The translations under genes were made by a program, and so were the position numbers. The notes under the pieces were generated by a model. That model was not told the DNA's origin. It saw only the letters and a list, made by a program, of their open reading frames with translations, and made no database searches. A stretch of DNA of 64,000 bases, taken from the NCBI RefSeq assembly GCF_000238775.2, contig NZ_AFEJ02000001.1:3162001-3226000 (forward strand). The letters run 5' to 3'. Below, piece after piece: positions 3,184 through 52,905 of the stretch (position 1 is the stretch's first letter; each line of letters starts with the position of its first letter). This DNA comes from Acaryochloris sp. CCMEE 5410. Lineage in GTDB: Bacteria; Cyanobacteriota; Cyanobacteriia; Thermosynechococcales; Thermosynechococcaceae.

Positions 3184-4881
3184 TTAACCTAAATTACCCA
3201 ACGGGTTTAGATCGTCCACTGCAGCCAGCAGTTCAGGCATAGAGAAGCGTAAATCTTGGTTCTCTTTGAGAACCGAGATAGGGCTATTGGCAATCAACCC
3301 AACAAATACTTCTGCAATAATCCGACTCCCTACTGGTCCTAGCTTATTGCCATTATTGCGGATTTTAGCTTCCCGCAAGATGTAGTACCACAGCGGAGTT
3401 TGCTGATCTAAACCGTGTTTCAACAGAATGTCACTATGAGGACCATTAGCAATTTCAGCAGCGGTAATTGGCGTAAATTTTAAACCCGCATTTTGCATCG
3501 CTTGAGCTACAGCTTGCCCTGACGGTAACTTCATCAAGCGTCCTCGCAATAAGTTACGAGTCGCCAAAGAAATCATAAAATCGGGTAAATTCATGCGCTG
3601 AAATTCAGGTAGTGTCTTCAGGGCAAAGGAGAGTCTCGCATCAATCTGTCGAGCAAAGTTGAGAGTCGGATCGCTATCGATATCTGGAATGCCTGAGAAA
3701 TCATATAGACGAGTCCAATCCACAATCCAGTTAGTCGGTACAGTGGGTTTATCAAAGAAAGGAGTATCCTCTGGATTAGCAGATCGAACACCACTACCAC
3801 CAGAAAACTCAAATAATAGGTCTAAGGTTGCCTGTCGCTCTTGATCCGAGTTGAAAACTCTATTCCATTCATACACCGTACGGATCATGCTGTGCCCCAA
3901 ACGATAAGCAGCTACAGAAAATTCAATCGGCATACATTCTGCCAAATCATCCGTATAGAACTTACGGCCATACGTCAGAACATCTTTAAGAACATCTACC
4001 TCGATTAAACGAGGCAAGAAATCCTTGAGAACAATTGATTGATACAAAAAGACCACCTGCCGTCTAGCTTTCTCATACAATGCCTCCCCTTGTAAGGTAG
4101 AACCTTCTGCTACTAACCGATCTACCACCGCATTGTGAAATTTAATAAATGCGAGGTGGGTTTGAGCAACAGCTAGATTTTCATCATTGCGCGAATCACC
4201 AATAATGGCCGACATATCTTCTCTACGGGGCAGATCATTGGGCAGCGATTGATCAATGCCAGGAATCTCGCCACCTGGTTCACCATCAACGGTGGGACTG
4301 GTCATGCCCACTCGGAGATGTACACCATCTGATTCAAATAACTCAGCGCTTAGTTTGGGACCACTCCCATACAGGCAATCCAAATCTAAAGCCGGGGTAC
4401 GCACATTCATAATGTCCGTCGGATCCACGCTGTCATCCATCAAATCAGAGGAATCATCCCGGGTAATATCGTGATCAATAAATTGGCCTAAGTAGGTATA
4501 GCCCGCCGGAATATTGGAATCACCTTCTGAAATAATATCTTGCATCTCTGATTCCATAGCTAAGCCAAGCTCGATCAAAGCCTCGGTACTAGGTTGTGCT
4601 CCCTCGCCGAAGAGACGACAAAATATTCGCCGCGGCTTGGTCGGCGGATCTCCTGGGCTAGGATCGATTGGATCAGGAACTGGAACAGGGAATTTATCCG
4701 CAAATTTTTTAAAGACATTTGTAATGTCCGGTAGAGGGATAAGAGATCCTGATACCCAACCAAAATTTTTAAGAAAGTAACTTTCTCGTCCATGTTTCAT
4801 GGTTTTAAACCTATAAGAATATTCACTTGGCACATAAGCTAATTGCGCCATCAAGCGTTTAGAAGCACTCACGCCAGACAA
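3184..4881 (-). CDS. Animal-type haem peroxidase / fatty-acid dioxygenase-like
   Basis: A 565-aa member of the animal haem peroxidase (myeloperoxidase/cyclooxygenase) superfamily. Visible signatures are the distal loop GQFIDHDITRD with the catalytic His137, the downstream GDSRNDEN segment carrying the catalytic Arg followed by FIKFHN, and the proximal-haem motif YRLGHSMI. The core fills the length from about residue 85 to the end. There is no signal peptide and no obvious membrane anchor. Bacterial members include linoleate dioxygenases encoded beside catalase-related hydroperoxidases in Nostoc (recalled), which makes fatty-acid dioxygenation plausible; halide oxidation is the alternative. 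Neighbours are two lipoxygenases, one fused to an allene-oxide-synthase-type domain, so an oxylipin role is favoured by context. It is 240 AT-rich bases from the second lipoxygenase on the same strand and could be co-transcribed with it. Confidence 0.88.
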   Translation of the reverse strand: MSGVSASKRLMAQLAYVPSEYSYRFKTMKHGRESYFLKNFGWVSGSLIPLPDITNVFKKFADKFPVPVPDPIDPSPGDPPTKPRRIFCRLFGEGAQPSTEALIELGLAMESEMQDIISEGDSNIPAGYTYLGQFIDHDITRDDSSDLMDDSVDPTDIMNVRTPALDLDCLYGSGPKLSAELFESDGVHLRVGMTSPTVDGEPGGEIPGIDQSLPNDLPRREDMSAIIGDSRNDENLAVAQTHLAFIKFHNAVVDRLVAEGSTLQGEALYEKARRQVVFLYQSIVLKDFLPRLIEVDVLKDVLTYGRKFYTDDLAECMPIEFSVAAYRLGHSMIRTVYEWNRVFNSDQERQATLDLLFEFSGGSGVRSANPEDTPFFDKPTVPTNWIVDWTRLYDFSGIPDIDSDPTLNFARQIDARLSFALKTLPEFQRMNLPDFMISLATRNLLRGRLMKLPSGQAVAQAMQNAGLKFTPITAAEIANGPHSDILLKHGLDQQTPLWYYILREAKIRNNGNKLGPVGSRIIAEVFVGLIANSPISVLKENQDLRFSMPELLAAVDDLNPLGNLG

Positions 4882-48641: not shown

Positions 48642-49337
48642 TCACATCGCATAGCTAAGCGAGCCTAACATCTCTAAATCTAACCCAGAGGCTACCTCAG
48701 CCAGTGCTGTTCGATTCGTTGGATCAGACAAATGAGGCACCTGTCCAATCACTGGCACCTGGGTTAAGGTTTGTATCATATCGGCCGGTGCCCATTGCTG
48801 AATTTCTTCCGTGGATAATACCCCCGTAGCATTCAAAACAATGCCCTTGATATCCAGCCCAAACTGTCGTGCTAAAGTCACATGGGCAACCGCTTGTCCC
48901 ACACACCCCAATCGAATTGGCACCACTAAGACAATGGGCAATTGCCAATCTCGGGCAATATCCGCCACAATCAACTCATCTGTCACTGGAGAGCCTAAAC
49001 TACCAACCCCTTCAACTAACACCCAGTCAAACTGAGACTGCAACTGTTGAACCGCTTGCCAAGCAGGTAATAAATCCACAACCTGTCCAGCTCGTTTTGC
49101 CGCCAAGGGAGGCGCTAGCGGTTGCTCAAAATAAAGAGGGTTCAAGGTTTCCGGGGGCTGGTTCAGATCAAAGACCTCGATATACCATTCCCGATCTCCC
49201 AATCCAGATTGCACTGGCTTACAGACTGCAATCTTCTCATTTGGTCGATAGATCTGCCAATAGGCCAATAAGGCAGATGTAACAATGGTTTTGCCAATTT
49301 CTGTATCTGAACCACTAATTAAAAGAGTTTGTGCCAC
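48642..49337 (-). CDS. bioD: Dethiobiotin synthase
   Basis: A 231-aa ATP-dependent carboxylase that closes the ureido ring of dethiobiotin from 7,8-diaminopelargonate and CO2. The P-loop is LLISGSDTEIGKTIVTSALL at the N-terminus; VCKPVQSGLGD and FDWVLVEGVGSLGSPV (with the substrate-binding EGVG loop) and VLVVPIRLGCVGQAV follow. Family length is normal. The remaining biotin genes are not in the window. The upstream gene psiE is 22 bases away on the same strand and may be co-transcribed. Confidence 0.94.
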   Translation of the reverse strand: MAQTLLISGSDTEIGKTIVTSALLAYWQIYRPNEKIAVCKPVQSGLGDREWYIEVFDLNQPPETLNPLYFEQPLAPPLAAKRAGQVVDLLPAWQAVQQLQSQFDWVLVEGVGSLGSPVTDELIVADIARDWQLPIVLVVPIRLGCVGQAVAHVTLARQFGLDIKGIVLNATGVLSTEEIQQWAPADMIQTLTQVPVIGQVPHLSDPTNRTALAEVASGLDLEMLGSLSYAM

Positions 49338-49359
49338 AGCAATAATATCCTTAGATTGA

Positions 49360-49815
49360 CTATTTTTTAAGTTGACACACTAACCAATAACTGACCGATA
49401 GGGAGAAGATGGCTGCTGCCAACCCTAACAGATCGAAACCGGACGATTTCGCAAAGTCGAAAATAATCAATTTGCGCGCTACAGCGATTAAAGCAGTCGC
49501 AACCACCAACTGAACCTGAACGCCCTGATGATCGAGATAGGCTTGAACATTTTCTAACAGCTCTAAAGCAATCAGGATATTAAGGAATAAGCCAAAAATC
49601 TCTAGTAGGGTTGACTGAAAGAAGCCAACAGGTTCCGTCCATAATTCCTGAATAACCTTAAATCCAAGATCGAAAAGCGCGAAAAAAATAACAATGATCA
49701 GCGCTAGGGACAAAATCTTAGCAACAGTCCCTTGAAACCAATGCAACACCTGGAGAAAAGACGCATCGCTAAAAACCTTAGCCATACGGTTCGATGTTCG
49801 ATGATTTCGCTTCAT
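49360..49815 (-). CDS. PsiE-type membrane protein
   Basis: A 151-aa protein with four hydrophobic helices: ILSLALIIVIFFALFDLGF, LEIFGLFLNILIALELLE, VVATALIAVARKLIIFD and LLGLAAAIFSLSVSYWLV. The central segment LELLENVQAYLDHQG and VATALIAVARKLII are typical of the phosphate-starvation-inducible PsiE family, whose function is unknown. The start ATG at 49815 gives KRNHRTSNRMAKVF; an internal ATG at 49785 would drop ten residues. It is upstream of bioD on the same strand with a 22-base gap. Confidence 0.75.
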   Translation of the reverse strand: MKRNHRTSNRMAKVFSDASFLQVLHWFQGTVAKILSLALIIVIFFALFDLGFKVIQELWTEPVGFFQSTLLEIFGLFLNILIALELLENVQAYLDHQGVQVQLVVATALIAVARKLIIFDFAKSSGFDLLGLAAAIFSLSVSYWLVCQLKK

Positions 49816-50015
49816 AGGAGATGTTGCGGACCTACTTACGGTAATAAAGGTAACGATGAATCATATTACAGAAACTTGATTCGGTCGCCCTCGCACCAGA
49901 TAATAAAAAAGCTGGAGTAGTACAGTAAATTTATGCTTAGACTCTTAGCCTTTTTTTGCTAAGTTTGCTAGATGATCTGTATTATCGTTTTGCCCATTTT
50001 CATAGGACTTTGATT

Positions 50016-50120
50016 ATGATCAGCGACATTTTACCTGCAATTATGACGCCTCTAGTTGTTTTAATCGGTGGCGGAGCTGCTATGACGGCCTTCTTTTATT
50101 ATGTTGAGCGTGAAGGATAA
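50016..50120 (+). CDS. PsaI-like photosystem I small subunit, candidate Psa27
   Basis: A 34-aa single-helix peptide, MISDILPAIMTPLVVL... ending YYVEREG. Its plan is that of PsaI: a short N-terminus with LP and P before a hydrophobic helix, then an acidic end (YVEREG compared with YIE.. in PsaI). Acaryochloris photosystem I is reported to carry a subunit called Psa27 at the PsaI position (recalled literature), and this peptide is the natural candidate. It lies alone, divergent from psiE and facing the psbJLFE block across a strong palindromic terminator. It is too short to be called by ordinary gene finders. Confidence 0.72.
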   Translation: MISDILPAIMTPLVVLIGGGAAMTAFFYYVEREG

Positions 50121-50224
50121 TGGACGGGGCTTAATCCATCAACTCATGCCATGTATTTCATATAGCCGACCTTGCTTACTGGACGGCTACGTATAGCAAG
50201 AAGCCATAACAAGCATCTTAACTA

Positions 50225-50256
50225 AAAAGGGGAGTCAGTTAACTGACTCCCCTTTT
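50225..50256. terminator. 32-bp perfect palindrome, bidirectional terminator
   Basis: AAAAGGGGAGTCAGTT and its exact complement form a fully symmetric stem ending in TTTT on both strands. It lies between the stop of the PsaI-like gene and the stop of psbJ, so it can end transcription from both sides. Confidence 0.85.
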
Positions 50257-50277
50257 AGATATCGCAAAAATGCTAGC

Positions 50278-50394
50278 TTACAGGGAAGAACCCAAGCCTG
50301 CATATGCTCCATAGAAAAAGAGACCTACAATTGCAATGAGGGCGGTCCCTGCGACTGTCCCTACTAGCCATAATGGAACTTTTCCATCTGCCAC
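50278..50394 (-). CDS. psbJ: Photosystem II protein J
   Basis: A 38-aa single-helix subunit of photosystem II, near cytochrome b559 and involved in electron flow at the acceptor side and in assembly. The sequence [18 protein letters not shown] ends with [16 protein letters not shown], which is diagnostic. The start is GTG, chosen because AGGAGG lies nine bases upstream and the resulting length matches the family. Last gene of the psbE-F-L-J operon, 91 bases after psbL. Confidence 0.95.
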
Positions 50395-50485
50395 AGACTT
50401 TTCCTCCTAAAATTACCAGCAAAGTTTATGCATAGAATAGTTTGTTCTCAAAAACGCTTATCAAATGGATAAACGGAATTTTATG

Positions 50486-50602
50486 TTAGTTAAAAAAGTA
50501 GCTTGAGAACAATAAAGCTAAAACAAGAACAAGCAGCAAGCCAATAAAGAGCGATGCACGATTCAACTCTACGGGTTGCTTATTCGGATTGGGTGTTGCC
50601 AT
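50486..50602 (-). CDS. psbL: Photosystem II protein L
   Basis: A 38-aa single-helix subunit needed for correct electron transfer from pheophytin to QA and for dimer formation. [15 protein letters not shown] and LFSSYFFN at the ends are diagnostic. ATG start with GGAG just upstream at 50608-50611 on the minus strand. It begins nine bases after the psbF stop in the psbE-F-L-J operon. Confidence 0.96.
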
Positions 50603-50611
50603 TAACGTCTC

Positions 50612-50746
50612 CTATCTCTGAATGAACTGCATAGCTGCGATTGCACCCAGGAAGAAGGTAACCGGGACACCTAGGGTATGAACAGCCAACCAACGCACTG
50701 TAAAAACTGGATATGTTACCGGTTCTTTTGAAAGTCTACTGGTCAT
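50612..50746 (-). CDS. psbF: Cytochrome b559 beta subunit
   Basis: A 44-aa subunit. The haem-ligand His is in [13 protein letters not shown], followed by the membrane helix [16 protein letters not shown]. With PsbE it binds the b559 haem at the photosystem II core. The ATG at 50746 lies eight bases after the psbE stop. N-terminus [14 protein letters not shown] is somewhat unlike the common TSNNPNQPVTYPIFTVRW start but the core is unmistakable. Confidence 0.96.
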
Positions 50747-50754
50747 TGTTATAA

Positions 50755-51006
50755 CTATAATCCTTTTGTAAATTCATCAATTTGTTGCTTACCTTCATAA
50801 CGGTCAGTAACCAAAGGTAGCCCTTGTCGAGCTTGGTCAAAGTACTCGTTAGGTCTTGGCGTTCCAAACACGTCATAAGCCAGACCTGTGCTTACGAATA
50901 GCCATCCTGCTAAAAACAGCATAGGTACCGTAATGGTATGGATAATCCAATAACGAATGCTTGTAACGATATCACCAAAGGGTCGTTCACCAGTTCTACC
51001 AGACAA
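50755..51006 (-). CDS. psbE: Cytochrome b559 alpha subunit
   Basis: An 83-aa subunit: [20 protein letters not shown] with the haem-ligand His, then [19 protein letters not shown] and the lumenal tail [12 protein letters not shown]. The start is TTG at 51006, giving [10 protein letters not shown], because AGGAGGT (51014-51020) lies seven bases upstream; an in-frame GTG at 51015 would overlap the ribosome-binding site. First gene of psbE-F-L-J, 121 bases after ycf48, the usual cyanobacterial order. Confidence 0.96.
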
Positions 51007-51135
51007 TTCAAACACCTCCTATGAACACAGTCATGATACTTAATCATACGAAACCATCGGACGTCCCACAAGTAAAACCTGAAGTTTACTTCCGCCAACT
51101 ATCAAAATAAGAAGAAAGCGGAGGACTTTTACCCT

Positions 51136-52149
51136 CTAAGCAGATGCTTTAGGGGGAGCAATGAAACGCAATAGCGTTCCAGATTGCCCAATAATGAACC
51201 CTTGATCAGATGAAACAAAAATAATCTTGTAGAGGTTGGATGGCACATCCTCTACCGTCGAATCTTTCTGCCAAGTTTGGCCACCGTCTAGGCTACACAG
51301 TAATGTGCCACTCCCCCCTGAAATCCAAACTTCATCAGGAGTCCGATAAGCCAAATCTAAGAGTCCAATTTTGTTAGTGCCAGGGGTAAAGGCTTCATCC
51401 CAGGCATAATCTCCATTCTCAAGAAAACCAGTACTAAATTGAACCTGTCCGCCTTTGTTCAAAATCCAGGGGTTACCATTGGGATCAAATCCCATGGTTT
51501 GAATCCGCCTAGCACCATTTCGATCATGGCTTTGCCAAGAGGTCTCACTAGGATCAAAGGTGGTATAAAAACTTCCCCGAGAAGAAATGGCGACATATTT
51601 ACCGTCTTCAGATCGGTTAATATTGCGCGTTGCCCCTGTAGCCTCTTCAACTAAGGCTGTCCAATGCTGAGCCTCATCTTGAGTACGGTAAATAGCACCG
51701 AGGTCGGTGATCATCTCGACCGATTTTGGACCTAAGGCAGTCACTTGATAGGGAGTCCCAGGAAGTTGAGTACTTAGAGATACCCGTGACCAAGACTTTC
51801 CACCATCCGTTGTATGGAGCAAAATAGAGGGTTCACCCACAATCCAACCTTCATCACCAGAAAAGCTGATGGATGAAAAGCGATAATCTAAGTCTCCTAG
51901 GGCAAGAGGACGCTGCTCCCAAGATTTACCCCCATCAAAGGTTTCTAACAGAGCAGAGTTGGTTCCCACGAGCCAGCCATGGTCTGGGGACGCAAAACTG
52001 ACGTCTAAGACAGTAGAGTCAGTCGGCAATGCGACGGTTTCCCAAGAGAGGGAATCCAAAACTGGCAGGCTATTGCAGGCAGTTAAGAAAAATAGAGCGG
52101 CAAAGATAGATATCCATTGCCTTGAAGTCTTTAGAATTGCTTTTATCAT
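51136..52149 (-). CDS. ycf48: Photosystem II assembly factor Ycf48
   Basis: A 337-aa beta-propeller lipoprotein (HCF136 in plants) that binds the newly made D1 precursor and assists assembly of the photosystem II reaction centre. The N-terminus IFAALFFLTACNSLPVLD carries a lipobox (LTAC), so the protein is a thylakoid-lumen lipoprotein. Repeated blades show the DHGWLVGTNSALLETFDGG, EGWIVGEPSILLHTTDGGKSW and DEVWISGGSGTLLCSLDGG patterns. It lies between rubA and psbE, as in most cyanobacteria. Confidence 0.97.
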   Translation of the reverse strand: MIKAILKTSRQWISIFAALFFLTACNSLPVLDSLSWETVALPTDSTVLDVSFASPDHGWLVGTNSALLETFDGGKSWEQRPLALGDLDYRFSSISFSGDEGWIVGEPSILLHTTDGGKSWSRVSLSTQLPGTPYQVTALGPKSVEMITDLGAIYRTQDEAQHWTALVEEATGATRNINRSEDGKYVAISSRGSFYTTFDPSETSWQSHDRNGARRIQTMGFDPNGNPWILNKGGQVQFSTGFLENGDYAWDEAFTPGTNKIGLLDLAYRTPDEVWISGGSGTLLCSLDGGQTWQKDSTVEDVPSNLYKIIFVSSDQGFIIGQSGTLLRFIAPPKASA

Positions 52150-52806: not shown

Positions 52807-52905
52807 ATGGCCGGAGAAATTTTCACTACAGCATTTCTTTGTTTTTCGCTGATCTTAGTGGGTATTGGTCTGGGATATTTGCTATTAAAGGTAGCTCCCG
52901 ACTAA
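52807..52905 (+). CDS. petM: Cytochrome b6f complex subunit PetM
   Basis: A 32-aa single-helix peptide, [17 protein letters not shown] followed by [15 protein letters not shown]. The MAGEIF start and GLGYLLLK end match PetM, the subunit VII of cytochrome b6f. It lies alone between rubA (divergent) and ychF (convergent). Its usual location in cyanobacteria is also near rubA/psbE in some genomes. It is too short for routine gene calling. Confidence 0.85.

Follow-up and report, generated by a model that had tools for sequence, protein, structure and literature searches.

The closest described counterpart of the gene reported here is Psa27 of Acaryochloris marina photosystem I. In the passages that treat this subunit, the study of strain MBIC11017 (PMC8058080, Hamaguchi et al. 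2021) judged Psa27 to be in effect PsaI rather than a separate subunit: it sits where PsaI sits, is 29.4% identical to PsaI of T. elongatus and adds to the stability of the trimer, and the pigments near Psa27 and PsaL lie in an arrangement specific to A. marina. Both that study and PMC13251853 give 7COY as photosystem I of MBIC11017; the relevant parts of the latter assign 9SK3 and 9S6P to photosystem I of strain NIES-2412 and describe an added chlorophyll d adjoining PsaI at the monomer interface. Its authors, writing in 2026, gathered PsaI by tblastn and used blastp where a subunit was neither PsaI nor PsaX2, and the passage on psaI in a 2017 review gave the gene as absent from the genome (PMC5438491). 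PsaZ of Gloeobacter is described as another diverged PsaI that goes under a different name (PMC10694217, in the part that discusses it); it belongs to a different lineage and is likened to Psa27 by description.

The window, the whole 64,000-nucleotide stretch of Acaryochloris sp. CCMEE 5410 DNA that was analysed, carries an intact short gene (Table 1) with the product MISDILPAIMTPLVVLIGGGAAMTAFFYYVEREG, 34 residues followed by a stop. An earlier note had read this frame as having the PsaI plan but a diverged sequence, had named it a candidate Psa27 and had proposed comparison with the published sequence. That comparison was run and the match was complete. The best PDB match was the Psa27/PsaI chain 7coy_aI of 7COY, identical at 34 of 34 residues with an E value of 2.9e-18, which is more than chance would give. 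The same chain sequence occurs in 7dwq, 9s6p and 9sk3, making four PDB entries in all, and the photosystem I structures of MBIC11017 and NIES-2412 contain a chain that does not differ from the window peptide, so that the sequence does not tell the strains apart. The gene is real, the name Psa27 is right and the protein, named earlier, was already known. At E<=10 the search listed 47 distinct sequences, nearly all of them PsaI chains, with CoA disulfide reductases and a thioredoxin reductase as the few exceptions; PsaI chains other than Psa27 matched from E 5e-4, and the four PsaI alignments shown were all free of gaps.

Table 1. Features of the psa27 locus and its neighbours, in window coordinates
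Feature	Position	Strand	Evidence
psa27 (psaI) CDS, 34 codons + stop	50016..50120	+	translation; 34/34 against PDB 7coy_aI; orthologues; dN/dS
conserved leader with AGGA, putatively ribosome-binding	50001..50015	+	5' of the ATG in 6/6 genus loci
perfect palindrome of 32 nt; TTAA loop on a 14-bp stem; A and T tract ends	50225..50256		sequence; RNA fold
psbJ, convergent neighbour of psa27	50278..50394	-	PF01788 E 4.8e-21
psbL	50486..50602	-	PF02419 E 1.5e-24
psbF	50612..50746	-	PF00283 E 4.9e-15
psbE	50755..51015	-	PF00284 E 7.9e-24; PF00283 E 2.1e-16
ycf48, photosystem II assembly factor	51136..52149	-	PF14870 E 6.1e-139

Orthologues of psa27 were sought in 39 genomes, including the window's own, at E<=1e-8. 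They were found in the window's genome, in five of the six other genomes of the genus and in one genome of another genus of the same family (G014), whose peptide is 66% identical to Psa27 over 32 residues and 62% over the alignment. In the sixth genus genome (G004) the contig ends inside psbF and the place is not assembled. Six named records with psa27 are Acaryochloris or related metagenome bins. Besides the usual psbE and psbF, G004 has an extra, diverged copy of both genes on contig C50 (L135, 1501-1923), 57-58% and 63% identical to psbE and psbF of the window; this pair may be a paralogue or contamination.

The mechanical list of open reading frames contains an alternative, longer frame with a TTG start at 49956; the ATG given in Table 1 is common to the five other genus copies examined. 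The leader before it, CATAGGANNNTGATT in the genus, has the counterpart aataggattttcatt in G014, and three stops were present in the one antisense frame tried. The RNA fold of 50205-50270, which spans the palindrome, has an energy of -24.9 kcal/mol (z -7.1). Judged by its sequence and its position between two convergent genes, the palindrome is probably a two-way terminator; it was absent from the output of a simple terminator scan, and Rfam gave no match at the gathering threshold over 49300-51300.

Curated family models placed Psa27 below their cut-offs, with 19 bits against 38.2 for TIGR03052 (the NCBIfam PsaI model) and 16.1 against 50 for a second NCBIfam PsaI model. The TIGR03052 alignment pairs residues 6-33 with model positions 3-30 of 31 (E 9e-4), giving homology across the helix. 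A Pfam search of the peptide at E<=1 returned B12D (E 0.43) and no PsaI match. The suggestion in the earlier note that ordinary gene callers overlook so short a gene is plausible. A search of the whole genome with the PsaI model at E<=10 did not list psa27; its single match lay elsewhere, scored 11.9 bits and contained an internal stop, and chance matches of this kind occurred in 9 of 14 control genomes. This search found no psaI above the family cut-off anywhere in the window's genome, where psa27 is the only copy found and where psaL, on contig C2, has no psaI within about 3 kb. With the PsaX model the genome of the window gave a single match, whose 15.8 bits fall short of the threshold of 25, and 8 of the 14 controls also gave one. 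The petM gene of the window (52807-52905) is also very short, encoding 32 residues, and scores above its family cut-offs.

We consider it very probable that the peptide is both Psa27, a single-helix subunit of Acaryochloris photosystem I, and PsaI changed in place, which sits beside PsaL in the trimer and helps to hold the trimer and the nearby pigments. The gene neighbourhood was surveyed at 76 loci (6 from the genus, 30 best-scoring and 40 stretches picked across families, with some genomes repeated), 15 of which had neither psaL nor psbJ within the flanks covered. In all six genus loci and in G014, psa27 lies head-on to psbJ of psbEFLJ (psbEFLJ-ycf48 in the window). The same place, convergent with psbJ, is taken by accepted psaI genes: within the family, G007, G009 and G017 each have a cut-off-passing psaI there, and outside it such a psaI directly faces psbJ in five genomes from five families, G232 among them. 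A further seven genomes from two families have psaI facing psbJ with psaL between, and in G026 psbEFLJ, psaL and psaI all run in one direction. Since psa27 stands beside psbJ as accepted psaI genes do, Psa27 is taken to be PsaI by descent. Gene order receives no mention in those passages on Psa27 of Acaryochloris that were consulted, and we claim no priority for it. Copy counts weigh against change in place: of the 22 genomes that belong to the family but to other genera, 19 have a psaL-then-psaI copy, 5 (including G014) a psbJ-linked one and 2 have both, and gain and loss of psaI therefore occur.

Several unusual psaI genes were encountered. G009 and G017 have two each, the first being psbJ-linked and the second following psaL. 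At the psbJ place of G010 the psaI is sub-cut-off and frame-broken, its frame being lost mid-helix (L125, contig C88, about 3529-3700) through either real loss or assembly error. At the same place in G232 (L095, contig C4, 2507-2617) lies a peptide of the psaL-psaI kind, which suggests an exchange between the two kinds of psaI. Variants without the mid-helix proline, one residue shorter and divergent from the adjoining psaL, are present in G032 (L017/L132) and G012 (L059/L124).

Psa27 was compared pairwise with 41 PsaI peptides grouped by gene neighbourhood. The mean number of residues identical to Psa27 was 12.7 for the psbJ-linked group (n=9, frame-broken L125 included), 12.9 for the psaI-psaL-psbJ group (n=7), 10.4 for the psaI-psaL group (n=10, three far-diverged peptides included) and 9.1 for the psaL-psaI group (n=15). 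Psa27 shares with psbJ-linked PsaI a single helix, the LPxxxxP motif, the gene place and a gap-free alignment; on average some 13 of its 34 residues agree with that group. It differs in having lost the mid-helix proline and in lacking the DPSGI-like tail of many members. PsaI of the psaL-then-psaI kind (the G011 peptide, as in PDB 1jb0) takes the same position in the complex according to the account of Psa27 in PMC8058080, whereas its gene place is different, its identities are fewer and its profile scores are lower. Profiles were built without L125, with L084, L087 and L104 left out of the psaI-psaL profile and the odd L095 kept in. The seven psa27-type peptides scored 27.2-36.7 bits with the psbJ-linked profile and 13.3-27.2 bits with the psaL-then-psaI profile, the former exceeding the latter by 7.8 to 15.5 bits for each peptide.

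An alternative is replacement, in which the psbJ-linked psaI gave way to the gene of a separate subunit or to a different kind of psaI. That Psa27 is just 29.4% identical to the PsaI of T. elongatus (the comparison given in PMC8058080) and scores below the family cut-offs would fit such a replacement, as would the peptide at the psbJ place of G232, where gene place and sequence kind have parted company. Further results count against change in place: the psaI-then-psaL profile fits the psa27-type peptides as well as the psbJ-linked one does, and the G014 peptide scores nearly alike with the psbJ-linked and the psaL-then-psaI kinds (pairwise means 66.8 and 62.5). A tree of 43 distinct PsaI peptides, without L125 and with L084, L087 and L104, joined the six distinct psa27-type peptides in a single clade (97.9/100), whose long branch of 0.68 would also fit replacement, and set this clade tentatively beside L131 (73.4/85), outside the psbJ-linked group. 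When the psbJ-linked PsaI of G009 was used as a PDB query, Psa27 was absent among the matches listed (60 of 69). Against replacement, psa27 occupies a psaI place, its homology to PsaI chains is gap-free, and the PsaI model gives the G014 peptide 31.2 bits, more than the listed genus copies (21.1-26.1) and less than the cut-off-passing ones. On this balance we regard replacement as very unlikely.

Slighter still is the chance that Psa27 derives from PsaI2, the far-red isoform of the FaRLiP cluster. Both proteins occur in photosystems with far-red chlorophylls, Chl f with PsaI2 (PMC10694217, where it treats this isoform) and Chl d in Acaryochloris (PMC8058080). However, psa27 lies at the psbJ place, and PsaI2 chains have 63-70 residues (6kmx, 6pnj and 7s3d) against 34; on length and gene place this origin is held unlikely. 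Of these entries, 6kmx and 6pnj are presumably far-red forms. PsaI2 chains were not listed in the PDB search with Psa27 at E<=10, which weighs little because the PsaI of 1jb0, which we take to be that of T. elongatus, was missing too. The proline-less peptides of G032 and G012 were considered as links to PsaI2 and dropped on their PDB results: with the G032 peptide no PsaI2 chain was listed at E<=1, and with the G012 peptide PsaI2 chains had E values of 0.006-0.07 against 5e-8 for the best PsaI.

Five genus copies and G014, each compared with the window copy, gave totals of 34, 15 and 74 differences at codon positions 1, 2 and 3. Among the six genus copies dN/dS was 0-0.21 in 14 of 15 pairs, dS being saturated in the remaining one, and psa27 is under purifying selection in the genus relatives. 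That a frame of merely 105 bases might be a chance opening or a decaying remnant is refuted by this selection and by the presence of the same chain in solved structures.

Taken together, these observations favour descent of psa27 from a psaI gene at the psbJ place that most likely changed where it stood. The one transmembrane helix of Psa27, beside PsaL, would help to hold the photosystem I trimer and nearby pigments, a role drawn from the published structures, and the loss of the mid-helix proline, the FFYYVE end and the short tail may suit the surrounding pigments. More tentatively, and with the odds somewhat against it, the psa27 form could be a fast-evolved, in-place psaI older than the split between Acaryochloris and G014, and so perhaps older than the dominance of chlorophyll d; its published distinctness would then stem partly from the use of a T. 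elongatus psaI, which sits at another gene place, as the reference. Of the earlier description of Psa27 as a distinct subunit, the name stands and the separateness does not: the discussion of Psa27 in PMC8058080 equates it with PsaI, and gene order and most profile scores agree. The small frame thus encodes an already known subunit of photosystem I that falls below the curated cut-offs of its family, and its gene order backs, independently of structure, the view that Psa27 is PsaI by descent.
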